NCBI GenBank assembly: GCA_001600175.1
Contig: BCJC01000006.1
Coordinates: 511,968-575,967 of the forward strand
DNA length: 64,000 nucleotides
Reading direction: 5' to 3'
From: Erythrobasidium yunnanense
Lineage: Eukaryota; Basidiomycota; Cystobasidiomycetes; Erythrobasidiales; Erythrobasidiaceae
Below, in pieces: positions 1 through 62,786 of this stretch. Position 1 is the first letter of the stretch; every line of letters begins with the position of its first letter. The notes below the pieces were generated by a model. The model did not search any database, had not been told where the DNA came from, and was given only the letters and a program-made list of their open reading frames with translations. The position numbers and the translations under genes were made by a program.

Positions 1-3000
1 CAATCTGCCTTACCATCATTATGAGTGATCCTACTTTGTAGCTTCTTGTTGCCTGAGATCGCCGCCTCCTCCGAGTTGCTAACGATGTTCATGAGCGCGA
101 TGCCGTCTAAACCAAGCATCTTCTCAAAGTCGACGTAGCCTTTGGAGTTGCGATTGACGTGTTCCAGTGAGAGACTGTAGTACGTTCCATTCGAGTTTGA
201 CTTGAAGAGACTGCCCCATTCGCTGCCCGCTTGGCCATGTGTTGTGACATGCAAGAAGATAGCATCCGTATTGGACTCGAGGATAGTATAAGCTTGGTTT
301 TCGAGCTTCATTCCTGGAGGGAAACGGCCAGTAGCAAATTTTTGGCCATCTAGCGAGACTTGCAGGGTCAGGGCACCAGTAGCCTTATTGAGCTGGAATG
401 AGCGTAAGCGATCTATCTCGGGAGCTTGACAAAGAGACCTACCTCGGCAGCTATCATATACTCTTCGAAGGTTGCAAAGCCCACGATAGCTTCAAAGAGC
501 ACTTTCTTATCTGAATAGAAGTTCTTGCCAGCAACGAGTTGAAGCGAGCCAGCGTCGGCACTCGTCTGAGAGCCCGACTTCTGCTTGTATGACTCGCAGA
601 AGATCAATCGCTCGTCTATCTTTAGGCGACGATCTCTCGCCCACGAGCAGACTCGCACGTAAGAGTCGATCTCTCGCCAGTTCCTGCCATTATCCTTGGA
701 GTAATATGCCACTGCTCGACAGTTTGGAGACGTCGAGCTACCACAGTCTTTGCTTCCAGTCCAGATGAGCCAGTCTGGCTGAGTTGGGTGGAAGTCTAGG
801 AGAGGTATTCCGAGAGAGTTTGGCTCGAGAGGCGCGGTGAACTTGCTCCAGCTCATGCCCTTGTCGGTCGTGTAGTAGACAGTCCGGCCAGCTGTGAATA
901 GATATGCCCTATCCTTTGAATACATGTGCATAGCTGTCGCTACGAACTTCTCGACTCCCTCGATGTCCTTCCATGAGAAGCCTTCGTTCGAGCTTTGCCA
1001 AACACTACCATCCTTTGCGAATGCTAATACAGTCTTGGAGTCGGCGAAATATGCGTGCTCAGTGATCAGGGCTGGGAAGTCGTAGCGCTGGTGAGAGACT
1101 TTGCCAGGCGTAGCGATTCCTTCTGAGCAGTCTTTCATTTTAGGTGCGTCCTTCTTGATTCCTCGATCCCTGTCGCAGGTGTTGCCTGGAATGAGACGGT
1201 ATCCCGACGAACCTTCGAATTTATCGCCCTCTTTTTGACAAGCTCCTGAAGGTATAGGTTGTGGACCGGCAAGAACACACTCGTCTCCGTCCAGTACATA
1301 GTTAAAGTCACTGTGAGTCAGTGGCTCAGCTATACTAGCTGCCGGGCCGAGAGATTCAGCTTACCACTCGAAATCCTCATCGCTGCAGGGGCAGTCTTCC
1401 ATTCGGCCGACAGGCTCGTTGAAGAGATCTGTGACTACACAGTCGGCATCTTGCTTGCGGCGATTGAACCATTGCTGCAGAGTACACAAATTTCAGCAGG
1501 TGACGGAAAGCAGTTGATCAGGCTTTCGCCCACCTTATGTCCCATCAGGCAGTCAGGTTGGCCGTTGATTTCTCTTGCATACCACTTCTCGAAATCTCCC
1601 TTGGCGCACTGCCTCTTCTCGAGTGAGCTAAAGTCGATGTGGACGATAATATGGCGCTCATTTCCGCTTCCTTTCGATTTGCGCGTGAGAGTACCCAAGA
1701 GCAAGAATTTCTGACTCGTTGAATCAGGTATAGTCGTAAGGAGCTTGGCTCGCAAGGTGACGCCAAAGTCGAACTTCTCCCATGTCTTGCCAAAGTCGAA
1801 CGAGTATCGCATATCATCGGTGCTATCTTCGTCGTCGATAGCAACCAATATGCTGCCTTGGGCACCAAATTCGTATTTATGGGCGCCCTCAGCTACCATT
1901 GACCAGGTTTGGCCAGCATCAGTAGACACGAAAGTATCACATTCGTCGTACGGTTGAAGGTATTCCCCTATGCTACCGACTCCCATGACTAGACCGGGTG
2001 CCGAAGACGAGAAAACGCGCCCATAGTTGCGAATGTCGGTAACGGAGTGGAGATGTAGCGAGCAGCTCGATAGCTGGCTTACATCGCATTTTACTTTCTT
2101 CTCGTCGCTGTCCCTCTCTGGAGCTTTTAAGAACTGCCAATGACCTCCATCGTCCATGGTAAGCTTTGTCTTGAGCTTCTTATCCTCTGTTCTGGCATCT
2201 ACTTCATCTGGATTCGCGATGATATTGGCGATGGAGACTCCTTCGATACTTTCAAGCTTCTCGAAGTCCACGATGCCGGCAGCATTACGATTTGTATGCT
2301 CAAGCGATTTAACGTAGTTGGTGCCGCGAGAATCGCTCGTGAAGAGGGTGCCGCTTGCCGCTGCTACATCGGTGAGAACGTCGACAAGGATGGAATGCTG
2401 GGTAGATTCAACGATAGTGTATGCGTTCTCGCGAAGGCCATGTCCATGTGGGAATAGACCTTTGTGCCATGTTGTGCCATCGGTGGTCACGTAGAGTAGC
2501 ATCTCATCGCCGTTCTGGCCAGATGGACTTTTGCTTGCGCCGTCATCTCCTCCGTTGATGATACCCGGCTTGAGTGCTGCGACTAGGTAGCTTTTGACTG
2601 CTCCTATCCCTACGACACCTCTGGCGTTCTTGCCAATACCCATATCTACATAGTGTTTCTCGTTCTTGAAGAAGTCGGTACTCGAGTACAGCCTAGAATC
2701 AGAGATACTGCGCATGCCAGCTGAAGAGGCCAAACTCTCGATCTTGCCTATAATGTCATCGAAGGTCGAGGTCGAGGATGACTGGGTTGACTCGTAGGCT
2801 ACGCAATAAACAAGCTCTTTGGCAATGTCTTGAGGCACTTCCTTCGTAGCGTGAGCCCATATGCAGCGAGAAGTATCGGATAGCATTGGTCGAACTGGCG
2901 TCGCAAAGGCATCTTGTGTGACATAGGTCTGATAAGACGGGTTAATCAGCTCGTGCTACTGGCGAAGCTGAACCTTGCATACCTCATCGTAGCATGTCTT

Positions 3001-15483: not shown

Positions 15484-17002
15484 ATGGATTCTGGGACCGG
15501 TAGCCAAGCAAAGGGCGACTCGTATGTGCCACAGTCGTTGACGTTACAAGGATCGGGGCAGAGAATCCCAGAAGAAGCAGAAGAAGAAGAGTACGATGGT
15601 ACATCTCAATATGCTGCTAGTTCGGCAGGTGTAGAAATGGGCAGTATGGTACGTAGCTGCGATACGCGACCTCCCGATGCAAGCGCCTCAACAAGTTACC
15701 AAACTATGACTCGCAGGCATACTTTCCAGATCAGCCAACGCATTTGTCAGCGCTGCAGCAGGAACAGCCTATACCCAGCACTTCAGCTCTTCCCGAAGCT
15801 TCCTCCCATGACCTACCGGAGGCGGCAGCCATCAGCGTAAGGTCAAGAAGGTAGTCCTCAAACTGAAATAAAGCTGATATGTATGTGAATAGAAACGTAC
15901 TCTACAAAATCGCAGAGCGCAGCGCGAGTTCAGACAGCGCCGAGCTTCGTACATCAAGGATCTTGAAAAGCGCGTGCGTCAACACGAGAGCGGAGGCAGT
16001 GGCGATGCAATACAGGAGCTACGGTCCACGGTATCCCGTTTGTCAGAAGAGAACGACTATCTTCGCGCCACGATCAGTCGGCTTGAAGGTGAACTGGCCG
16101 ATGCCAAGCGGCAATTCCACCCTACAAGGCGCGCCTCCGCGGTCTCTGGCACTATAGCATCACCATTACAGCAAGGGGTCAGCATACCGGACTCCGCTGC
16201 ACCTGTACAGCAACGTCCGCATTCAGCACAATCAGGACTGAGTGCACCATCGCACCTATATCACGCTTCGTCTTCACCATATCCTCGCACTGCGACTCCC
16301 TCGATATACGACCCGGCATACGACAATCAGACCGCTTGGCACCATGGCATGCAGCAGGTTTCGAGCCCCTCACATATAGGTTTCAGGCGTACCTCGCATA
16401 GCACGCCAGTTTCGCCAATCGATGCCAACCCTAGGCTCCCTCCGCGATCTATAATGGCCCCTCGTTCCTCCGTTTCCAGTCTGCCCGATACATCAGCGGC
16501 GAGCACAGGCTATCTGCAAGCACCTCCGGACCTTCGCTACCCTCCCGCTTATGGCCAGCTGCCTGCATCACCAATTACCCACGGGCTTGCTCCTGAGCCT
16601 CGCATTGAGTCTACAAGACTTGGTGGTCTCCAGGTCGCATCTGAAGTTCAATACACGCGCGAGTACCCTTCGGTGCTTGAGCAAGGAACTTCCTCGCATC
16701 AGCAATACAGCTATCAACTGCCTCAGATACAGTTTCCACAGCCTCAATATCATCCAGACCACTCGCAGCAGGGACCACCGTACCTACAGTCTACATACGC
16801 GCCGGCAGGACCCTCCGACTTCCCAACTTCTGGTGAAGTCTATCCACCGCCTCCCGCTCTTGAGATCCATACGACCCACCTTGATCCGAGTGCTGGTTCG
16901 CATTCGGATCCTCCAGCACCTCAGGTAGTCAGCCCGACTACCTTCGCGATGCAAATGTCCCTGTCTCCAGACGTACGTCAGTCAGACAGGGCAGGATACT
17001 GA
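15484..17002 (+). CDS. bZIP transcription factor, Yap/AP-1 type basic region
   Basis: DNA-binding regulator. The acidic N-terminus (MDSGTGSQAKGDSYVPQSLT) runs to MGSM, then an intron (15649-15719) to AYFPDQPTHLSALQQ. A second phase-0 intron (15839-15891) leads into the basic region KRTLQNRRAQREFRQRRASY. The zipper follows with Leu/Ile/Val heptads (IQELRSTVSRLSEENDYLRA, then ISRLEGELADAKRQF). The NRRAQREFRQRR core matches the Yap/Pap1 class (NxxAQxxFR). The remaining 290 residues are Pro/Ser/Tyr/Gln-rich and disordered. I see no Cys in the last 340 residues, so the redox-sensing Cys-rich domains of Yap1/Pap1 are absent; a role other than peroxide sensing is likely. Confidence 0.9.
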
Positions 17003-17312
17003 GGAAATTGCCCGGATGTAAGGATAGCTAGGACTGTTCGTTGTCCCCCTTTCAGTCGATGATCCGCATGCAGCATACACCACTCGTTCAATATCTGCAT
17101 CCACAGGCCTCAGCGCAATATCACTTGTCAGGATGGATACTCCTGATCGTTATACGAAAGCCTTCTGTAAAAGTCTAGCATACGCAGTGAAAGCATTGTG
17201 TAGAAGTTTAGCGTACGCAGTCGAGCTCGGCAGCCCACGTTAGTATTTTTGCGCATGTGGAAGCTCTTCAATCTGTGTGTAGCTGAGGAAATAGCACATG
17301 AGTATCTTACAA
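17003..17312. other. Convergent 3' region with short direct repeat
   Basis: Lies between the convergent bZIP and Pex-like genes. It holds a 22-nt near-repeat at 17167-17188 and 17200-17221 (period 33, three mismatches). No gene seen. Confidence 0.6.
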
Positions 17313-18729
17313 CTAGTACGTAGGCACGCTGACTATCCGTCTGACCCATCTTCTCCGTCTCCTTGCAGCTCCAGCTCTCTCACCCGGTTTCTGTTCCGGA
17401 TCAACATAAAGCGGGCGTTCATCCGCGTCCCAGAACGCCCAGCCTTGTGCATCCACACCATAAGGTGCATTATACAAGCCCAACACATCTATCAACCATT
17501 CTTCATTTACGCTTGCTGCTGACCCGTTCAAATACGCGAAGCCTTTTGGCGGAGTTATGGAATGGAGAGAAGGAGCAGCGGACGCTATGCTTGGGTCGTC
17601 GTACGAGGAAGAACTCGTCACCGACGCCGAGAGTGACGAGCGTAGATTCCGCGCAGCTGAAGAGGGTGTGCCAACCATAGCTGCCGATGCTGCAGATCCA
17701 GTAGAAGCAGCGTGCTTCGCAGACTTTGATAAAAGAGGCTGTTCCTCCTCATCTATGAGGACTACCCATGGCTTCTCCGCTTTGCTTTCCCTCAAAGTAT
17801 CCGTCGACCAGCTGCCGTCCAGCCCTCGTCTTTCGTTCTCCAGCACTACAATCTCTTTGATGATTGTCTTTTCGCCTTTACGATTTGGGTAAACGACTTG
17901 GTCCGGCAGAGCATCGTCCGCTAGGAATTGTACGCCGATGGCTCTCAGACGTTGTACGTAGAGTTTTGTGGATGAAGAGGCGGAGATTGCGTTCATGAAC
18001 GATATAGAGAACGGATGAGTGGCCAGAAGGCCAGCTTCGCCAAGCACAAGGAAGACATAGCGTATATCTAGAAAGGGAGTGCTAAAATATAAGGCTACTC
18101 CGAGGACGAGGGTGATTGAGCAGGATAGCTGAAGGAGAACTGTGGATGTATAGGGAGAGGACCAGTTGAACAAGGGGACTAGATTGCGACCGGCATCTGT
18201 AAGATCGGCTACTCTGCCCATAAGTTCTTGGATGTTTTGCATGTTCTGCAGGTAGCTAAATGTCTCAAGTTAGTATAGGACGCGTCCTCCTTAAATTGAC
18301 TCACTCCACTGATCCAGGTGCAGGCGGGTTCTCCGAAACCGGTGGTCTGACTGTATGGTGCGATGACGGCGGGAAGCGGGTATTATGGTTGACCAGTAAT
18401 ATGACAGTGATAATGATGGATGGCAGTAAGAGGATAGTGGCAGGGAACAAGCAAATGATAGCCCATCCGGCTCCGGCACATAGGGTCTGGAATGGATCTT
18501 GCCATCGAAGTATCGCTTCTATCCTATCTGAGACAGCGAATACAGGTCCAGCTTTCTGTACGAAGCGAGTGAACTGGAGGGTAGTGGTTCGCAAGGACAG
18601 CGCATTCTTTGCCCCGTCAACGCTTGCAGCAGGCAATGAGGAAGCCAGCAGTTCGGATATCAGGTTTGCAGCAGAGTTGGATGTGGACTGATCTCGCTGC
18701 CCAGCGTCTGCATAATGATTGTTCGACAT
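17313..18729 (-). CDS. Pex23/Pex30-family (Pex24p/dysferlin-domain) membrane protein
   Basis: Family members sit in the ER and peroxisome membrane, shape ER subdomains and control peroxisome number (family knowledge). Exon 1 has a hydrophilic start (MSNNHYADAGQRDQSTSNSA), then RIEAILRWQDPFQTL and hydrophobic spans (WAIICLFPATILLLPSIIIT). An intron near 18290 joins GSVD to YLQNMQNIQELMGRVADLTD. Further membrane segments follow (TSTVLLQLSCSITLVLGVAL, YVFLVLGEAGLLAT). The C-terminus has a dysferlin-like pattern: NEEWLIDVLGLYNAPY, GWAFWDADERPLYVD and ARRRRRWVRRIVS. The start lies only 103 bp from the divergent RPN13 start. The subfamily (Pex28, Pex30 or Pex32 type) cannot be fixed by eye. Confidence 0.85.
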
Positions 18730-18832
18730 TTCTTGCTTCTTGACGTCGCTTGGACTTCTGCCTTTGACCCTTCAAAGGCTTATTTCAAGACTCTTCAAGC
18801 ATCCATTACCACCAGTCTTAAGCTGCGTTAAA
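18730..18832. promoter_or_regulatory. Short bidirectional promoter, PEX-like / RPN13
   Basis: 103 bp serve both genes. It contains TTGACGTCG, a CRE/ATF-like palindrome core. No PACE (GGTGGCAAA) proteasome element is visible. Confidence 0.5.
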
Positions 18833-20052
18833 ATGCCCGCCTTGATCTCGTTCAGAGCTGGACGCGCAGAGCGAAGAGGGACAACGAGCTGGGTGGACCC
18901 GCAGCCTGGACGAGGGTGAGCCGGGCGTCGACAGCGAGAAGTCACAGCAAATATCTGACGATACTTCGGTTCACCGGCAATCTGCAGCCTCGTCTCTGTC
19001 GAGCAAAGTAACGATGACGGCCTGCTGCACTGTGAGCGCGCGAACTGACCAGCGGAAGACGGTTCTTTGGGCGCTGATAGCTATCTGGACAGTCATCTAC
19101 AAGGATCTAGAATCCAACAACACCATCGACGTACGCTCGCCGGGCAAAGACAGCCTTCTAGGCGAAAAGCTGACGACGATGGACCGCGCAGGACCTGATA
19201 CTCTTCCCTGGCGACGCAACCTTCGCGCCAGTCTCGAATGCACGAAGAGTCTATGTTCTACGCTTCACAAGCTCGAGCGCAAGGCATTTCTACTGGATGC
19301 AAGATGTAGCAGACGACCAGGACAGCCGACGAGCAAGCAGGGTGAACGCACTCATTGATGACCCAAGTGCTAGTGAAGATGCTCCAGCAGATCAATCACA
19401 AGATACAGACATGTCTTCGGCGTCGGCACCAGCTGCAAGCTCGTAAGTTTGGCCAGATCTAGACCGACTAGGTGTATGTTGTCTACTACAACAGCAGGAT
19501 GTACAAGATACGGAATAGAAGCTCATGTATCTGCCCTTCCTCAGATCCCAGCCTGCTCCTTCCTCGTCCTCATCACCCACCGATAGCAATCCTCCTCCAT
19601 CCTACTCCTCTTCTTCCAATATCACCCAAGAGCAGATGGCCCAACTCCAAGCCTTGATCCAACGAAGTGAACAGTCATCTGGCTCAACTTACGGTGGTCC
19701 AAGCGTTTCCCTAGCCGACATCCTCTCCCCATCCCGTCTTCTATCTCTGCTCAACTCCAATCCATCAATCGCCGAATCTCTATACGCCTACTTGCCTCCC
19801 GCAAGCGAGACGGTACCGCATAATCTGGAAACGCTTAAAGCGGTCTTCACCTCCCCTGAAGTCCGAAAATCAGCTAGAGGTCTGGATCAGGCGCTTAGTA
19901 CAGGCGCTCTCGGTCCGCTTGCCTATGGGCTGGGATTGAAGGAAGATGAGACATTTGGCGTGGATAATTACCTGAAAGGCGTACAGAGGCTGGGCGATGA
20001 AGAGAAGAACAAATCTGCAGGAGAGTCTGGAAATGCTATGCAGACGGATTAG
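18833..20052 (+). CDS. RPN13: Proteasome ubiquitin receptor Rpn13
   Basis: Ubiquitin receptor of the 19S regulatory particle that also recruits the deubiquitinase UCH37 (family knowledge). The Pru domain is split over small exons: MPALISFRAGRAERRG and TSWVDPQPGRG, then LVSVEQSNDDGLLHC, then FIYKDLESNNTID, then DLILFPGDATFAPVSNARRV and YVLRFTSSSARHFYWMQD. This matches the Rpn13 order of ubiquitin- and Rpn2-binding segments. A Ser/Pro-rich linker follows. The C-terminal DEUBAD reads SLADILSPSRLLSLLNSNPS, then SIAESLYAYLPP, FTSPEVRKSARGLDQALSTG and LGPLAYGLGL. Each exon joins in frame with GT-AG sites. The intron before SQPAPSSSSSP was placed by the SS/SQ junction. Confidence 0.94.
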
Positions 20053-20193
20053 CGAGTTTGTCCTTTCGTGTCGTAGCATTGAAAACGATTTGCTTAGCAT
20101 GCATCAGGCAAGGGCGGCATAGCGTACAACAACTCTAGAAACTGCGATCTGCACTGAATTTTGCTTCTTTCTCGGACCGGAGGCATAAATAAA

Positions 20194-23100
20194 CTAGTGC
20201 TGATCCAGTCTTTGACGTTCGATAGTGCTGTAAAGAATAAGGCGCCCTCAGTCTCAGCGCAGCTATCGAGAGTAGAGGGACGACAACTCACGACTTCTGT
20301 TTATGGTTCCTCGATACTCTCCAGTATTTCTCGAGGGTACCGTTCGCGCCCAGTGCAGTCAAGAAATCTTCATCGTGCGTAATGACAACCAATTGGAAGT
20401 TGCTCTGCGCCTTTCTTTCCTGGATGATGTCAGCTAGCGCGCTAGCTAAAGCTGAGATGTTGTCTTTGTCCAAGTTTGTAGTTGGCTCGTCTAACGCGAG
20501 AATACCACAGTTCGTCCCAAAGGACTCGGCTAGAGCTAGGCGGATGATGATGCTTGCAAGGACTTTTTGACCAGCACTGCAGCGCCCTCGCATGTCCATC
20601 TCGACCTGATCTTTGACCATGACGACCTGAAACCAAATGTAAGTCAGCATTTCGTTATCCCCAGCTCCAAGCCATGCTGTCCAAACGCACTCGGTAGTTG
20701 TATGATCTGTTTCCGACTTTTACGGCACCATCGCTATCAGACTTGATCATGATAGTATCGATATCTGTTCCTTGATAGCACTTGTTCCAGAGTCCTTGAG
20801 CTGTATCGTTGATCTCCATCATTTTGTGACTGTGATAGGCCATAATGGCTTTATCAAGTGCTTTGCCGTATTTATCGAGATCTTGAATGGCAAACTCGGT
20901 GGTCTAGAATAGCATCTAGATTAGAATGCGTCGCTTGCGAGGTCGTGAGTAAACAAGCGCTCGCCTTGACTTTGATGAGCTGCTCGGTGTACAGCCTTCG
21001 GATGTCGTTGTACTCCGACTCCAGCTCAGCAACACGCTCCGCCAGATTCGATTCGCACATTGCCAACTCGCCGCTTACTTTGGCGTGCTAGGACGACAAT
21101 AAACGCTCAGCTTCGCAACGTTTCACCAGTATTGCGCCCAGACATACTTTCGCTTGCAGCTCGGTCAGCTTCTTCCGGCTTGCCTCGTACTCTGTATCGA
21201 ATTGTCTTTTCGCCTTGTTCGCTCCTTCTAGATCTTCTTCCGCGATCAATCTGTCATACTCCTTCACTTCTTCCTTCATCTTCCTGTATCTAATGTTATC
21301 GTCGACGTTTCTTTCCAGCGCTTTGCTGTTGTTCTCCTCTCTCTCGATCTGAGCAATCGAGGCATTCAATTCTCGTTGGCGATCCTCAATACCTCTGTAC
21401 TCAGCATCCAGCTGCTTAATCTGTGCCTCGCAGTTCTTGAGTTTGCCCTTTGCATCGGATTTCTTGGCTCGATTGACAGCTTCGACTACCGTCGAAAGGT
21501 CACTATAGCCTTGTTTGAGAGCATCATAGCTGCTTCGTGCCTCTATCTCCTTTTCTTTGTTCTTCTCCGATAGCTCTCGCAGCTCTTTTCGTAAACGAAG
21601 TAATGCAGGTTCGCTCTCTTTGATCTGTTTGTCGGCCGCTTCGAGCTTGTTCTGAAGGTTGGTCTTTTCTGTCTCGTTCTCTGCCTTCTGACGCTGAGCT
21701 ACAGCTCGCGCATCGACTTTGGCCTGAGCATCGGCAAGTCGAAGTTGTGCGCGAGATATGTCTTGTTCGGTCACACGAAGGCTTCGCTCGAGATTTCGTT
21801 GCTCTTGCTGAGCTGATTCCACGTTTTGTTTGAGCTCCGTGCTGGAAGATAGATAGATGCAGATCAGCTCTTGTACCTCGCGAGGCTTTCGCAGATTCAA
21901 TAGCTTACAGCTGACCCGAGATCTGACGGATCTCTGCTTGAACATCATCTGCAGTTCTGGCAGAGCCAGTGCTTTCAAGCTGTCTCTCCAGGTTCTTCGC
22001 CTCTCTAGCACTGTCCGCAGCATCCGACAACAATCGGTTGATATCTGTCGCGACTAGCTTTAAGGACTCGAGTTCTCGCAGAGATGACTTGAGTATGTTG
22101 ACCTTAGTAGAAGCTTCCTCGGCGTTGTTGATGGCGTTCTTGTGTCGAGCTGTGGCTCTCTCAAGATCCGCCTCGTATCTAGGGATGTCGATCTCTCGTA
22201 GCTTCTTGGCGCTACCAGCAAGTGGTTCAACTGCTTTGAGACTGTTCAGGATGTTCTGCCACTCTTTTAGCTCAACTTTCGCTTCCTCGATCGCTTTGGG
22301 GCTTGAGGCCATCTGCTTCTTGATCTATAGACAAGCGCGCGTATTAGCCGCAGCATGCGACATGAAAAAGGAACCGCCTACGTAGGTTTCGAAGCTTGGC
22401 ATCTCTTCCTGAGAGAGTCCACGGGAACAGGCGATGCACAGATCCTTCTTGTGGGCGATATCAAGCACTCTCTGATAAAAGGTACGCGCTGCTCCTAGTT
22501 GCTCGATAGTTCTGAGAAACAAAGAGATCAATCAGATGTTTGCCTTCGTCTGTCTTGAGGGTGCGCTCACGAATGACGCGCTTGGATCTCGCTCTCGGCT
22601 TCTTCCAAAGCTTTCTCGAGGTCTTGACCTTCCGTCTCCTCCAGAATTTTTGCCTCGGATTCTACAGCCGGCACGTCAGGACTAAGTATGATGCGAAGCA
22701 ACGAAGGATCTTACCTTTGACTTCTTTCTCAGCAGCGGCCTTCTGCTGCTTCAATAGCGAAACGCTGCTTTCAATCTGTGTAAGATCCTTTTGAGCGGAA
22801 AGAGAGGCTTTCTCGGCTCTAGCAACTTCGCCAGATAGCTGCCTATACATCAACATGTCAACCCGGCGTATTGCATGATGCTGAAGTGACTGCTCACTGA
22901 TACTGAAGCTTCACATTCTCGAGCATCTTCTCTTTGTCAAGGTCCTGCCCGATGCGCTGCTTGTACAGCTCAGCGTGCGAGTCGGTCCTGTAAGACGGTA
23001 CAGTCAGCGCCGAAGCTCAGACGGACGTCATCAACAGCATACAAGCTCTTTATCTGCTCTTCCTTCTTAGTGACTTCGGACCTCTTGATTGCAAGTTTGG

Positions 23101-25146
23101 CTCTGGTGTCTGCTTGCCTGTTGAGGCTGCCCAGCTCGCCGTGTAGACCATCTCGCTTGTTCTCGAGCTCTCGAACCTCCTTGTTCATGTTTCGGATTTT
23201 GTTGTCTGCATCAAGCTTGCGCTTCTCCTCATTGATAGACTGCTGCTTAGCTTCGCCTTCCTGGATAGTCTGCTTGCAGGATAAAACGTCGCTTTCTGCG
23301 CTACGTGCATTGTCGATCTGAAGAGTGAGCTCGTCGATCTGCATATTTATGCGCTCTTGCTGGCTCCTGATGCCTTTCCTGACTGTTTGGTGAGACAGCT
23401 GTTCTGCCTCGACAGAGCCGATCGCAGCTCGTTTGTCGTCTTCTGCTTTTCTTGCTGTCTCCTGCTCCAACATGTTAGCTTCACAGCACTCTCTATTCAG
23501 CAAGCAAGGCGACCTACTCTTTGTTCGATGAGGACAGCCCTCTTTTTCTCGACTTCTTCGTGTAAACGCATTCCGAAATCTTGGATCTGATCCTCTTCTA
23601 GAGGGTTGATGTCGAAGCCGCGAATGTCGTGTATAGATGCTAGCGAGGTGACTTTGCTCTGTCTGTCATCTAAAGCACGCTCGTATTGCTGAGGAAGGAG
23701 ACGCGCGTCAGCCAGTCTAACTTAAACAAGGCTCACAGTACTTACAGTCATTTGCGCATGCAAAGTACCCTTCTCAGTCTGAGCTTTTCCTAGCTTCTTG
23801 CCGACAGCGTACTTCTCTTCTTCTACGGCGTCCACATCGACCCTGAAAGCTTGCTTTCTGGCGGCCTTCGCTTGAGCCTCTCTTGCGAAGTTATCGCGTT
23901 GGTGAACAAGCTGTTCCAATGTGCCGGTCAACTCATTGATGACTTTACGCATCTCAGAAATGTTGCTGATAGTATTTTCCTTCTTGTTCTGCAGATCTTG
24001 TACTTTGCTTAGAATTCGGTTGTGTTCGACAGCTAGCTCATAGAACCTCTTGTTGTGAGCAGTGACGCCCTTGATCTGCTCATCCAGAGTCTCGGTATCC
24101 GCTGTCTTGGAAGCGATGTCTCGTTCGAGCTTCGAGATCAGACCCTCGACCTTGACAGCTCTGTCACGGTCAGTCTTCAGGGACGTCAATTTCTCCTTGT
24201 CTACTTTCACTTCTACGCCCTTGTCTTTCTTGATCGCTTTGATCTGGTCCAGAGCTTTGGTATACTTCGTAGCCTCAAATATATCGTCAAACTTCTTCTT
24301 GAGCACAGAAGGCTCGGATAGAGGCCAATTGGATTCTTCCTGATGGCAGAAGATAACGTTCTCCAGGATGGACTTGCTGACTCCCAGCTGGCGTGGTACC
24401 TCCTCATCGAGATCCGAGCAGCGCGTTGACAAGGAGCGTCTCTGAGTACGAAAGCCAAGTTAACAAAGGACACACTGATCATGTATAGCATACTGTTGGC
24501 CTAACCTTCGTATTGTCGTCCTCCTTGTCAGTATAGGAGATGGTCCCCTCGAGCGTCTTCATAGAAAGGTTTGTCTTCTTCTTGGTCACTTGTAGCCTTC
24601 GATTCACCGTCATTCTGCTGTTGTTTGTATTCGTGAAGCGGAGCTTGACTTCGGCTTTGACTTCTGTCTCGCCGGCCATCTGAATATACGCGTTAAAAGG
24701 CGGCCTTTCTACGCAGACTAGCTTGCAGACTAACATTGGGATCGTGTATGAAGGCTCCACCCTTAGTGTTGGGCGGCATATCGCCTGTGGTGATGTACTT
24801 GAGGCACTCGATGATGGTCTGGCATAGCATTCGCGGCTTGAGCATGGCTCTCACGGCTCAGAGACGCAGTATAGATGGACGAACCGTCTTGCCAGAGCCA
24901 TTGTGCCCGACTATGACGGTCAAAGGATGAAAGAACTGGATGACATTGATCTCGTTATTGTCGAAGGCGCTGGAAATCGCCGCGCAAACCGCATCAGCAG
25001 CTGTTCGTTAGCAGTATCATCAGTAAGCATTGCTATCAGCGCACCGGATCCCTCGAATTCCTGAATCAAGTTATCATGCGCGTCAGTTTTTGGCGATGTT
25101 TCCCAGCGCGATGCTGCAGCCTACCGAGCTTGTCGAGCGAGCTCAT
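20194..25146 (-). CDS. RAD50: DNA double-strand break repair ATPase Rad50
   Basis: SMC-like ATPase of the Mre11-Rad50-Nbs1 complex, which tethers DNA ends and activates checkpoint signalling (family knowledge). The N-terminus is built from small exons: [13 protein letters not shown], then [20 protein letters not shown] and Walker A GHNGSGKT (about 24885-24907). Further on come the Q-loop-like [17 protein letters not shown] and very long coiled coils. The zinc hook CxxC is CIAC at 22427-22438 ([12 protein letters not shown]). The C-terminal lobe has the ABC signature [20 protein letters not shown] and Walker B/D-loop [12 protein letters not shown], then [14 protein letters not shown]. The last short exon ends at 20194 ([10 protein letters not shown]). 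Many introns; all key catalytic motifs are intact. Confidence 0.97.
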
Positions 25147-25382
25147 CGCGTCTGAACGCCTTGTTGGCTCTGTTCAGAGATATCGATGCTGTTGGGGTTG
25201 TGGGATATCGATGCAAAGGAAAGCGGTACTTTGAGGTCACGAGTAAATTACAAGCTGTAGGTCTACGAGTAGTGTGTACAGCGACATAACGAAAGTACTC
25301 ACTAAGGATGCAATAGTTTAGAAACAACAACGAAAGAAACGATGAAGAAGGAACTGAAAAGCGAACGAAAGAGATTGCACAA

Positions 25383-28300
25383 CTATTTTGCAAAGCGGGT
25401 GTGTGTTCCGGTTTTGGGGCTTGAAGGGACTCCGTTCGTAGCGGATCTTGAAGAATTCGACCGCTGATGAAACGTGTCGAGTATTTCATAGCCTTTGTCG
25501 GAAGTGTGTTTGAGGTCGCCGGCGAGGCCAGTCTTCGCAACGCTAGCTAGAAGAGATGCGGACGTTTCTCTATTCAACTTGCTGGCCTTTGAAGTACTGG
25601 CGGTTCTGCTAGATGCTGGTTTGGCGGTTTCTTCGTCCGAGTCGCCTATGTCGATCGGCTGGTCTTTGTTGCCGCCATTGGGCGTATGGAATGTTTGAGG
25701 GGAAGACGAGGACGCCGATGCGACAGGCGGAGCAGGAGAGGTTGAATGCTTGCGAACTTTTGTAGGTGGGTCCGCGAAGGTATAAAGATTAGGAGGGGGA
25801 GGTGGAGGAGATTCTTGACGAGAGCGCTTTCTGAATGGTGCTTGGATTAGGGTATCTATGTCATCATGTGGATCTACAGATGCAGGTCTGGGCCTCTTCT
25901 GCTCCTTCCTGTTGTTGGGTGACTTGCCGGACCTTGTTTCCATATCATGCTCGGCCACAACCGCTCGCAACTTGGAAGCGGAATTGTCAGGTTGCGAGGC
26001 GCTGTTTGCGCGTAATAAGCACAATATGCCGGCTCCCGCTTCCGATGAAGATGAGGATTGCGTGCGAGACCGAGATTGTCCTTCTGGCGATATGACTTTG
26101 TAGGGAAATGCGCTCGAATTCGCATCAGTCATTGCCGAGACCTCGTTCTCGTCCTCGCTCGTGGAGCTTGAAGAGTCGCCTGAGGTACTTGTCGATGTAG
26201 AGTGAGTAGTCGCGGAGGTTTCGGCAGGAGGTGACGTTTCGCGCTTGCCATTGACAGCACGGTGCTGCGATGGCTTTCTGTCTATAGATTGACTCGGTCG
26301 CACACCCTCTGCCTTCGTTTCCTCCTCCTCTTCCTCCTCCTCCTCCTCGTCAACGCCCTCGCTTCCGCTAGGCTCGGTGTCTAGGCTCATACGTTCGGTC
26401 TCATGATTCAGAGGACCCATTATCGATTCATTAGCTGGATCAATATCCATGGCCGTCTCGGATGCTGGGATTGGGGCTGGCGAGGATTCCAGCTCATCTG
26501 CCTCATCATCGAGATCTATGCTCGGAGCTGCAGGGGCAGCCTTGACAGGCGAAACCGATCTTCGTGGTTTGGTTTTCGCTGTCTGCTGGGAGAGGGAAGG
26601 CTTTGAGGCATCCGGCCACTTCGGGACCTCAACGACTATGTTAGAGGTATCGATTTTGGGCAGGGGTGCCGTTGGTGTGCGTTGCCGACTCTGCGCCAGA
26701 CTAGGAAGTCTGATATCAGGTCCGTGATCGCTCTCACTGCCTGAGCTTGCCGACTGTTCTATCACTTTCGGCTTCGTCTTCCTTTTATTCTTGACCGGAC
26801 TCGGAGTTTTGGCCTTTTCGACGATCTCTACATCTGAGTCACCTCCTTCCTCTTCCGAGGTTGACGGCATACCATCTGCAGCTGTGCTACCTTCACCCTC
26901 CGTCCCTGCTTGCCCTTGCGCAGCCTGGAGTCTGGCTTGCCGCCTGGCTTTCTTCTCTTCCATGTGTGCTTCTCGCCTCGCTAGCCACAGTTGATGCAAC
27001 TGTCGGATGTTATTGGCCAAAGTTTTGCGCCTGACCATAGCTTCTTCGCGTGCCCATAGTTCATTGATCGTCTCCTCTGTTTGCAATGCGCCCTTGGGCT
27101 TTGGATACCTTGCAGAGGCGGGGACAATCTTCTTGGTAAGATAGGGAACGATTTCTTCGCGACTCTCAAGCAATTTCTCGGTGAAGTGCATCACGTAGAG
27201 ACCACAATCGGAGAAGTTGTGTTGCTCTGAGCAACTCCCATTGATAGCTTCAACGTTGGAGTTGCCCACGTAGACATGGTCTTCGTCTGCAGCCTTGCCC
27301 TTGTCAACAGCTTCTCGTTTAAGGTATGCCCTGAGCTTGTCGTGAACGGCTTTGTGCTTGCCTCCGAGAGAGTCCAAGGTGATAATGTAGCACCTGCATA
27401 TGGCAATATTAGAAGTATTCTTAGGCAGAACAGCGACCTTACATGTCATTTTCGTCGGCCGCAGCCTGAGTAATTGTGCCGACAGACGCTGCAGTGTCGG
27501 CAACGGTGCTTTTGGCGACATTGACTTCGGGAGCCTCGCGTTCCTTCTGTGGGTTTGCGTCTTGGTCCGTAGTCATGACTTCGTCTGGCGAGGGCCCAGC
27601 CTTCGTTGAGTGTTCTTCGGCTGTATCTGATTTCGCCTCAATAGCTGAGTCTGGCTCATCGAGATCCATTTTTGCGTTGTCGAGACCTTTGGGTGCGTCG
27701 CTCTCGCCGTCCCCGTCCGTGCGGCCCTTGGCAAAATAAGGAGAGGTTACGCGCGTAGATTGCTTGTCAGAAGTCAGACCTGCTTTGAGACTTGCTGACG
27801 GCTCGACGGTGAGGTCCGTGTCCTGATCTAATGATTGAGGAGGCTGCCGTAACACAGCTCCAGGGTTGATAATGACGGCAAGATACCAATGAAAGCTATG
27901 CACGACTTCAGCAGAACGCTCCGATGCACAGTCTTGGACTTACTTTTCATTGATTGGCATGAATATGTACTTCTTGGAAAAGAGGTCAAACTTGGCAGTC
28001 CATTTGCGAACAGTACTGTAAGCGTCTACAGGCGTTTTGTTCCTGGCACAATACTGTCAATCAGCATTCCAGACTAGCGTCATCCGATACTCACTTGTCT
28101 TTCGAAACCGACTTCGCAGACAGTTTCTTGTAGAAGAACGAGCTGAATATGTGAATCTGATTCGCAAGCTCTTTTTCGGCCGCGTTGTCGTTATCAGCCA
28201 GTTTCTCCCACACTTGCCTTTACATGCGACAATCAGCATAAGCGTGATCCGGGCTGACGATATACGCACTTCATGCCAAACTCTACAAGAGTGTCATTGA

Positions 28301-45175: not shown

Positions 45176-45182
45176 AAAAAAA
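45176..45182 (-). terminator. Pol III T-run terminator
   Basis: Seven T on the minus strand, 13 nt after the tRNA discriminator base. A second seven-T run lies further on at about 45137-45143. Confidence 0.8.
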
Positions 45183-45255
45183 GGTGTTGAAGCAGAGCCC
45201 AATGGGGGGCTCGAACCCCCGACAATCAGATGTTTCTTTGGTATAAGAGTCTGAT

Positions 45256-45315
45256 CTGAAGCAGGAGACCGGATCAGGGGACAGTCTTGAGGGTGAGGGT
45301 TATGAAGTCGCTTAC
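45256..45315 (-). other. GT-AG type intron in tRNA-Lys (between positions 25 and 26)
   Basis: 60 nt, donor GTAAGC, acceptor CTTCAG, with CTGATCC as a possible branch site 23 nt before the 3' end. These features match the mRNA introns of neighbouring genes and not a bulge-helix-bulge tRNA intron. It sits between the A and B boxes. Confidence 0.85.
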
Positions 45316-45335
45316 GCTCTACCGACTGAGCTAAC

Positions 45336-45390
45336 CTAAATTTCAAGGTGTAAGTCTAAGGCATACCACAGCGCAAGGGACGAAATTTAC
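45336..45390 (-). other. GT-AG type intron in tRNA-Lys acceptor stem (between positions 5 and 6)
   Basis: 55 nt, donor GTAAAT, acceptor ATTTAG, candidate branch sites CTTAGAC and ACTTAC 13-25 nt before the 3' end. Without removing it the acceptor stem cannot form: the seven bases just upstream of the D arm do not pair with ATTGGGC. Confidence 0.85.
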
Positions 45391-45494
45391 CGGGCCGTTT
45401 TCCACCACTGTACCAGCTTGTGAGCTTAGTAAGCGGATAGAGCGGAAGTGTTTACAATACATTTATATACCACACGAGAGCTCTTTTCTTTCTT

Positions 45495-45589
45495 CACACT
45501 CGTCGCACGCACACTCGTCGCACGCACACTCGTCGCACGCACACTCGTCGCACGCACACTCGTCGCACGCACACTCGTCGCACGCACAC
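45495..45589 (+). repeat. 15-bp tandem repeat running into the assembly gap
   Basis: Six exact copies of CACACTCGTCGCACG, then a partial copy that ends at the first N. Open in frame on both strands (ARTLV / ACDEC repeats), so the open frames across it are artefacts of the repeat. Confidence 0.95.
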
Positions 45590-60986: not shown

Positions 60987-62786
60987 ATGACCTCAGACAG
61001 CATGACGCCCTCTGATCTAGCTGCTCAGCCCAATGAACAGCGACTGCCTGTAACTCTCTTGAGTGGCTTTCTGGGTGCCGGCAAGACGACTCTGCTCGAA
61101 AGGATCCTTACCTCCCCATCACACGGTTTCAAGATCGGAGTCATAGTCAACGACGTAGGCGCTCTTAACATCGATGCAGCCCTTTTACGCAATCACGAAG
61201 TCACTAGACGGAACGAGGAAGTCGTCGAGCTGCAGAATGGGTGTATATGCTGCACCCTCCGAGGCGACTTGCTCGAAGAAGTCGCTAGACTTGCCAAAGA
61301 TGGGAAGGTAGACTACTTGGTGATAGAGAGCTCGGGTGTTAGCGAACCTATGCAGGTAGCAGAGGCTTTTTCAGACGAGTAAGCTCTTCTTCGAAATGTC
61401 TTCAAATGATATATACTGACCGAGGCTGTCTGTTCGTCCTGTAGATTCGCACATATGCATGTGGCAGCTGCAGAGGAGCTGGAAAGCAGCACAGGCGGCG
61501 ATACTGAAAAGACCCAAAAGCTGGTCGAACTGCTAGCGAACGGCGGTCTTTCGACTATAGCTCGCCTGGATACTTGCGTAACTCTGGTGGATGCTATCAA
61601 CTTTATGGCCGACTTCAATACCGCAGACTTTCTAGTCGATCGACATGCAAGAGAAAACGTCCCAGAAGAGGATGACCGCAACATCTCCGACTTACAGACG
61701 GATCAGATCGAGTTTGCAGACGTGATAATTATCAACAAGTGTGACCTCGTCTCGCAGAACGAAATCAACAAGATCAAAGCCGTCGTTTCGTCCCTCAACC
61801 CCTCTGCCTCCATCTTGACGAGTACGAAAGCAAGGATCGACATCGGGAAGATCATCGATACAAAGCTCTTCTCGTACGAGAAGGCAGCTACTGGTGCAGG
61901 GTGGCTGCGCAGTCTCAAGGAAGAAGTGCTGCCCGAAACGGAAGAGTATGGTATCGGGACTTTCGTCTACCGAGCTAGAAGGCCATTCCATCCCTCCAGA
62001 CTGTGGAACACCATCAAGAAGGTGCTTGTCGTCATTCAGACGGAATTCATCGACGATGGCGACAGTGAAGGTGACGGCGAAGAAGGGGCGACTCTGGATA
62101 CGGATGAGGACAGCAAGGACAACGGACAGCCAGCTGCTGAAAGCAGTGATGACAGCGATATCGACGAGGGCAGTGAAAGTCAGACTGGCGACGGTAGTAG
62201 CGACGCAAGCGACATCTCCATGGATCTGGACGAAAGGCAGCCGCAGCTTAACCCTGCAAAGCGACTTGCAAGCAAGCAGGCTGACGACACTTTCGGTCCT
62301 CTCCTGCGAAGTAAAGGCTTCTTCTGGCTAGCGACCCGCCCTACTTATGTGAGTTGTACAGCTTATACACGAGATCTCAAGCTGATGTCGAATTTCTAGT
62401 ATGGCGAATGGTCACAAGCGGGAGTGATGTTAACGCTCTCAGCTGGTGGGTTCTGGTACAATGAAGTGCCTGAAGAACAGTGGGACCAGGATGCAGAGGT
62501 GCGCAAGGCTATTCGTAAAGACTTTGAAGGGCCATGGGGAGACAGACGACAGGAGATCGTCTTCATCGGGCAGCAAATGCGCAGCGGCGGTGGTCAGGAG
62601 CGCATTACGAAGGCTATGGATGCGTGTCTGCTAACAGATAAGGAGATGAAGGCCTTCAAGAAAGCCATGTCTGCAGAAGAGCGTGAGGAGCGCGAAGCCA
62701 GATTGAACGAGATCTTCGAGGATGGCTTCGAAGACTGGCCTGATATGTCGCTCGATAGTCATGACCATGACGGACACACCCATTAG
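60987..62786 (+). CDS. CobW/COG0523 (ZNG1-like) metal-chaperone GTPase
   Basis: G3E-family GTPase thought to deliver zinc or another metal to target proteins. Walker A is [18 protein letters not shown], the metal-binding site is [16 protein letters not shown] (CxCC), switch region [17 protein letters not shown], and the base-specificity motif is INKCD. An intron (61381-61444) joins FSDE to [11 protein letters not shown] highly acidic insert (about 62050-62240) precedes the CobW C-terminal domain, [13 protein letters not shown] joined across an intron to [20 protein letters not shown]. The tail is SHDHDGHTH, a likely metal-binding stretch. The N-terminal CPELVP-like METAP1-docking motif described for ZNG1 is absent, so the client may differ. 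Confidence 0.93.

Follow-up and report, generated by a model that had tools for sequence, protein, structure and literature searches.

Introns of the mRNA type in small structured RNAs are known from the U6 snRNA and U3 snoRNA of fungi, and the available text of a 2017 report names U3 and U6 as the sole small structured RNAs that introns are known to interrupt often (PMC5832005). Off-site tRNA introns are found in Cyanidioschyzon merolae, nucleomorphs and archaea, where they occupy the D, anticodon and T arms with up to three per gene (PMC9602550 and PMC4090602, in their available sections). In archaea and C. merolae such introns are tied to BHB motifs, and many of the insertions of Guillardia theta, which are 3-24 nt long, form no defined BHB (available sections of PMC3978253 and PMC4090602). 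Spliceosomal tRNA introns are not reported in the open literature covered here, which includes the available text of PMC13149111, PMC4605306, PMC4035089 and PMC11782384 and leaves preprints and most subscription papers outside its scope. The string "spliceosom" does not occur in the available text of the tRNA-intron review PMC4090602.

The tRNA-Lys(CUU) gene described here lies in a 64,000-nt stretch of DNA (the window, meaning the whole stretch that was analysed) belonging to an assembly of 20.9 Mb in 10 contigs. Protein matches, among which no close named relative turned up, and a CobW tree place this genome on the basidiomycete side; in the tree, which contains the query and 23 of 120 listed proteins, environmental proteins are the nearest group to the query (support 0.52-0.67), and basidiomycetes stand next to them (0.995). 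The tRNA genes resemble the fungal U6 and U3 genes in that putative spliceosomal introns interrupt a small structured RNA, and the introns of the local U6 gene are similar in size and signals. They differ in that the substrates are tRNAs of many isoacceptors, with as many as three introns within 75 nt, exon pieces of 5 and 12 nt, and introns in the anticodon and both internal promoter boxes. As in C. merolae, nucleomorphs and archaea, introns occur in the D, anticodon and T arms with at most three per gene, but unlike the BHB/TSEN class they have GT-AG ends, branch sites and a length of 51-69 nt, with no BHB excess. They also differ in position, length and signals from the canonical eukaryotic introns at 37/38, which are present here too (30 of 42 genes) and are presumably removed by TSEN.

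The gene occupies positions 45196..45395 of the window on the minus strand, as do all of its parts given below, with G1 at 45395 and the discriminator T73 at 45196 (from the sequence, the parse score and ARAGORN on the spliced form). Exon boundaries were read from the sequence and the scorer parse. Exon 1 (45391..45395) consists of tRNA positions 1-5, GCCCG. It is followed by a 55-nt GT-AG intron at 5/6 (45336..45390; GTAAAT..CTTAC..TTTAG, with CTTAC 19 nt from the end) and by the 20-nt exon 2 (45316..45335; positions 6-25), which contains the acceptor end and the D arm. A second GT-AG intron, at 25/26, is 60 nt long (45256..45315; GTAAGC..CTGAT..TTCAG, with CTGAT 22 nt from the end); both of these introns are given by the sequence, the parse and a deletion scan. 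Exon 3 (45244..45255; ATCAGACTCTTA) covers positions 26-37 with the anticodon CTT. An ordinary 12-nt tRNA intron at 37/38 (45232..45243; scorer and ARAGORN i(38,12)) precedes the 36-nt exon 4 (45196..45231; positions 38-73), which BLAST with the mature tRNA recovers as piece 38-73 at 100%. A run of seven T residues 13 nt past the tRNA end (45176..45182) is a likely Pol III terminator.

Removal of all three introns gives a complete cloverleaf with the anticodon CTT and with the terminator present. The earlier note on this DNA had claimed that three insertions must be removed to form the cloverleaf, two of them 55 and 60 nt long at 5/6 and 25/26 with GT-AG ends and branch-like motifs; its parse proved exact to the base (scorer 39.2, ARAGORN after removal), and the sequence bears out the features of both insertions. 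The score of the gene is 18.1 unspliced, 31.0 with one GT-AG intron removed and 39.2 with two removed. ARAGORN finds nothing in the unspliced gene and a tRNA-Lys(ctt) with a 12-nt intron once both GT-AG introns are gone. Neither ARAGORN nor Rfam at the gathering threshold detects a tRNA in the whole window, in keeping with a gene that stands in four pieces. When 300 random 560-nt pieces cut from the window were scored with as many as two GT-AG introns allowed, none reached 33 (maximum 26.2), and the window parse therefore exceeds chance. When all deletions of 30-120 nt are tried with GT-AG ignored, the 5/6 and 25/26 introns both fall in the top-scoring set, with two tied top products per intron out of about 22,000. 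Energy-based folding is by itself enough to bring the spliced Lys(CUU) RNA into the cloverleaf (-30 kcal/mol, z -2.33). It is the only one of three spliced tRNAs folded to do so cleanly; the minimum-energy structure of the spliced Ile and Phe tRNAs is not a clean cloverleaf (z -1.01 and -1.43), which is common for tRNAs, and these two folds were not taken as support.

The tRNA genes of the genome were collected by several routes. At least 17 places reach the cut-off of the Rfam tRNA family (63 of 397 candidates scored, 23 listed). Further candidates came from T-arm and A-box patterns; 100 of the 107 matches to GGTTCRANNCC were taken in, then three more regions. The patterns recovered four uninterrupted genes missed by the Rfam search (L026, L110, L113 and L144). 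Matches to GTTCRANNC..TTTT patterns arose mostly by chance, six of ten A-box regions are not tRNAs, and none of the seven places matched by a Met-i pattern is a tRNA by eye. Candidates were assessed with our own tRNA scorer, in which a 37/38 intron is permitted, and 24 candidate regions were searched for up to three GT-AG introns (a GC start was allowed for L018 only). Three of these 24 regions, L138 and the truncated copies L146 and L148, yield no tRNA. The resulting census comprises 42 recognised tRNA genes and three degraded copies (L098, L146 and L148), and is incomplete, with Met-i, Cys and several Leu, Val and Arg genes not found in it.

Once off-site GT-AG introns were allowed in this genome-wide scan, as the earlier note had proposed, 21 of the 42 genes proved to carry one to three of them. 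These are the window gene, L007, L017-L023, L074, L075, L103, L104, L111, L112, L123, L126, L127, L130, L131 and L143; the 21 genes without them are L001-L006, L008-L016, L026, L099, L110, L113, L125 and L144. Of the 42 genes, 30 contain a 37/38 intron, and 16 of these 30 have GT-AG introns as well. Scores after intron removal are 33.6-41.0 (34.2 for L111), and 24 reversed regions score at most 27.7. In a tile scan of 330 kb of the genome (both strands, up to two GT-AG introns, so that the GC-AG intron of L018 and the three introns of L123 are beyond its reach), 81 of 2,497 tiles score 30 or more. These collapse to 34 distinct sequences, every one a recognisable listed tRNA; one tile scores 27-30 and all others are lower. 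A standard tRNA finder overlooks or misreads such genes: ARAGORN makes six calls on the 20 unspliced regions, most with the wrong anticodon, and 19 calls on the 20 spliced genes. The one miss is L111, a probable Met gene with C4:A69 and T31:T39 mismatches. A 90-nt second intron first assigned to L111 was replaced by a 56-nt one (GTACGT..TTCCAG), which the tile scan picked independently. Several ARAGORN anticodons were also replaced on the basis of a strict 37/38 intron: Trp by Arg(CCG) for L011 and L104, Ile by Val(UAC) for L012, Gly by Trp(CCA) for L008, Ala by Phe for L112, and Arg by Leu(CAG) for L013. These re-read genes presumably resemble the known isotypes.

The intron set examined contains 27 introns from 20 genes; the 21st gene, L020, was omitted as an identical copy. 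The termini are GT-AG in 26 introns and GC-AG in one (GCAAGC). The 5' splice sites are mostly GTRAG or GTNNG, with G at +5 in 24 of the 27, and lengths range from 51 to 69 nt (mean 55.9, n=27). A branch motif CT[AGT]AY is present at -30..-11 in 23 introns and missing, in this strict form, from four (shuffled mean 3.4, maximum 11 in 2000 shuffles); motifs of the CTGAC, CTAAC and CTTAC type start 16-28 nt before the intron end. The 27 introns occupy 19 different sites, none of which is 37/38 (positions in the D loop are plain counts rather than standard tRNA numbering). Two introns lie at 35/36, within the anticodon, in Thr(AGU) L075 and Lys(UUU) L007, two are in the T loop (L022 and L143) and two at 53/54 (L021 and L123). 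ARAGORN, which is blind to splice sites, places a 58-nt intron in L075 and arrives at the same product. In a scan of all 30-120 nt deletions with no splice rule, run with the other introns of each gene already removed by the GT-AG rule, a GT/GC-AG product is in the top set for 19 of the 27 (P ~1e-21), with 1.6 expected from the share of GT/GC-AG deletions. For the remaining eight, one of which is the 90-nt L111 call since replaced, the GT-AG product stands behind 1-18 others of about 16,000-27,000.

In both L021 and L123, TTCGA follows directly on the terminal AG of the 53/54 intron, and G53 of the B box is in this way restored in the DNA by the intron end. Exons of 12 nt lie between two GT-AG introns in L123 and L103, and the first exon of the window gene has 5 nt. 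L130 and L131, both Gly(GCC), have a G1:G72 mismatch that would be cured by removal of a 53-nt segment at 71/72 (GAAAGT..CTAAAC..ATGCAG|CA). This segment, common to both genes, is possibly a GA-AG intron and is outside the 27 counted.

Could BHB-like motifs direct the tRNA splicing endonuclease to the off-site introns, as they do in C. merolae and archaea? Multiple off-site tRNA introns of the BHB class are known (available sections of PMC9602550, PMC3978253 and PMC4090602), and 37/38 introns are plentiful in this genome (30 of 42 genes). However, in a simple pairing count, BHB-like pairing is found at three of 27 GT-AG introns versus 112 of 1080 random positions (two arrangements allowed in both), and at seven of 15 canonical 37/38 introns of the same genes with only one arrangement allowed. 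Cleavage at BHB motifs would also leave the GT/GC-AG ends, the G at +5, the branch motifs and the uniform length of 51-69 nt unexplained, and is quite improbable. The off-site position, and nothing else, would fit self-splicing group I/II introns or small mobile-element insertions that mimic GT-AG introns. Group I/II introns occur in tRNAs of bacteria and organelles, but their catalytic core requires hundreds of nt, and we know of no such ribozyme as short as 51-69 nt. The 27 introns show no mutual similarity by BLAST at an E-value of 0.01, and in the part of the genome that was searched no copies were found elsewhere at 0.001 except in duplicated genes, which argues against mobile insertions. 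An origin of either kind is extremely improbable. Assignment to the U2-type class, in turn, is supported by the 5' splice site, branch site, length, precise removal, presence and absence in paralogues, and lack of BHB enrichment.

Paralogous genes with and without introns serve as natural controls. For Ile(AAU), L113 has no off-site intron and L123 has three; their mature RNAs are identical at 73 of 75 positions, and the two differences form one compensated acceptor pair (T3-A70 to C3-G70). For Arg(CCG), L011 has none and L104 two (69/72 identical). The window Lys(CUU) gene has two and L017 one, with the 5/6 intron in common and the 25/26 intron absent from L017 (72/73 identical). The intron of Gly(GCC) is at 9/10 in L130 and at 14/15 in L131 (71/71 identical). 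Paralogue exons are thus 96-100% identical, and the 100-nt flanks differ from shuffled identity by -0.07 to +0.12. This pattern suggests that the exons are held by selection and that introns have been gained and lost over time.

The same comparison bears on the idea that these genes are pseudogenes broken by insertions, with functional intact copies elsewhere. Three degraded copies (L098, L146 and L148) do exist, the census has gaps, and both interrupted and uninterrupted genes represent Arg(CCG) and Ile(AAU). The earlier note had called for a search for an uninterrupted second tRNA-Lys(CUU); the mature Lys(CUU) query matches only the window gene and L017, which also has a 5/6 GT-AG intron, so this escape goes unsupported and no intact tRNA-Lys(CUU) was found. 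Sixteen isoacceptors are found solely in interrupted form: Lys CUU and UUU; Gly GCC; Arg CCU and UCU; Asn GUU; Leu AAG; Gln UUG and CUG; Thr AGU and CGU; Pro UGG; Phe GAA; Ser UGA; Tyr GUA; and Met CAU (L111, probable). As the census is incomplete, intact genes may exist for some of the 16. Against the pseudogene explanation stand the exons of 96-100% identity within flanks near the shuffled level, the compensated acceptor pair in Ile and the T4 runs downstream of 17 of 20 genes, and it is very improbable. Among the degraded copies, L148 (G000:C5:1945.1 kb), which lies 4.4 kb away from L017, preserves the 5' part of a third tRNA-Lys(CUU) and lacks the rest; it has one GT-AG-like intron, at 10/11, and possibly another at 25/26. 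L146 (C2:633 kb) is a truncated Lys(UUU) copy, 98% identical, in which the intron is kept.

A T4 run lies at most 45 nt downstream in 17 of the 20 genes, including the window gene (offset 13). A TATA-like motif lies within 60 nt upstream in eight of the 20, and is absent from that interval in the window gene. Since the splice signals are of the mRNA type, the tRNA-like exons might be parts of a Pol II mRNA or lncRNA in which they are spliced, with no free tRNA produced. The T runs shortly past the tRNA end, the complete cloverleaf parses and the lack of any other Lys(CUU) copy among the genes found speak against such a host transcript, whose probability is close to nil.

Several introns occur in the U6 genes of some yeasts. 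In this genome, the U6 snRNA gene (L132:685-962; G000:C3:381984-382261) has four GT-AG introns of 52, 59, 56 and 55 nt, read by eye, one of which sits between the ACAGAGA box and the AGC triad. The highest-ranking match to the U6 family is incomplete and stays below the cut-off; cmscan splits the gene into two adjacent weak matches (E-values 0.005 and 4.3), one good to position 47 and the other covering 48 to 70. With four introns in U6, spliceosomal introns are thus also present in an accepted Pol III gene of this genome.

Four introns of protein genes in the window, recognised by protein homology with ends set by eye at GT/AG near breaks in the protein match, provide a small mRNA sample. Two are in a CobW-domain gene on the plus strand: one of 66 nt (61379..61444; GTAAGC..CTGAC..TGTAG) and one of 51 nt (62349..62399; GTGAGT..CTGAT..TCTAG). 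The others are in a Vps10/sortilin gene on the minus strand: one of 50 nt (393..442; GTAGGT..CTTAC..TCCAG) and one of 59 nt (1475..1533; GTGGGC..TGCAG) with no branch motif where expected. The protein-gene introns (n=4) are thus 50-66 nt long and GT-AG, three of the four with a branch motif. The 55- and 60-nt introns had already been likened in size to the mRNA introns of the window, and the tRNA introns as a whole (51-69 nt) are indeed of the size class of these four (50, 51, 59 and 66 nt). Protein-gene introns reside in Pol II transcripts, whereas the tRNA introns are in presumed Pol III transcripts.

From the signals, exact boundaries and paralogues observed, we infer transcription, spliceosomal splicing, an order of steps and a dependence of translation on them. 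The nuclear tRNA-Lys(CUU) gene would be transcribed by Pol III. Its introns at 5/6 and 25/26 would be ordinary U2-type introns removed by the spliceosome, and the 12-nt intron at 37/38 would go to TSEN as an ordinary substrate. Most likely the spliceosome comes first, since the acceptor stem that RNase P/Z need is broken by the 5/6 intron, and the fold measured by TSEN by the off-site introns; TSEN and tRNA ligase would take out the 37/38 intron afterwards. The same would hold for half of the recognised tRNA genes (21/42), one of which has three GT-AG introns and two of which have the anticodon split by a GT-AG intron. We put the probability at roughly 0.9 that this is a working Pol III tRNA-Lys(CUU) gene with two U2-type introns and one TSEN intron, and that half the recognised tRNA genes are built likewise. 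The suggestion of the earlier note that spliceosomal introns interrupt a Pol III gene gains support from the genome-wide signals, the deletion scan, the paralogues and the BHB test, and its view that the tRNA may need both splicing systems is likewise favoured by the sequence evidence.

Both splicing systems of the cell appear to be required for building the translation machinery, and if the model is true, the two eukaryotic systems act on one RNA. It is reasonably likely that the spliceosome is an obligatory tRNA-maturation machine in this lineage, with at least 16 isoacceptors made only after its splicing, and that this class of tRNA intron has not been described before. The dependence would then extend to all genes found for Phe, Tyr, Asn, Gln, Lys and Pro, and in two tRNAs to the anticodon itself, which an intron crosses. 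As U6 has four introns too, splicing, tRNA supply and translation would form one closed dependency. The machinery is known and the substrate class apparently new. Testable questions are how a Pol III transcript with neither a cap nor a polymerase II tail meets the spliceosome, how exon pieces of 5 and 12 nt are defined, how TFIIIC recognises A and B boxes that are split, and by which route introns enter structured RNAs.

Some features of the surroundings and arrangement of the tRNA genes can be added. A tandem repeat (CACTCGTCGCACGCA-like; window 45497-45589) lies upstream of tRNA-Lys(CUU), and the same repeat also precedes Lys(UUU) as well as one Gly(GCC) gene (L047, L049). L014/L015 (C6:207.8/217.2 kb) and L020/L021 (C8:146.4/149.3 kb) are inverted tRNA pairs with spacings of about 9 and 3 kb and the same gene sequence within each pair, which in L020/L021 is Leu(AAG). 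Copies of tRNA-Glu(UUC) lie near contig ends (L098 and L099 at the end of C6, L125 at the start of C9); two have an identical mature sequence and one is degraded at the acceptor.
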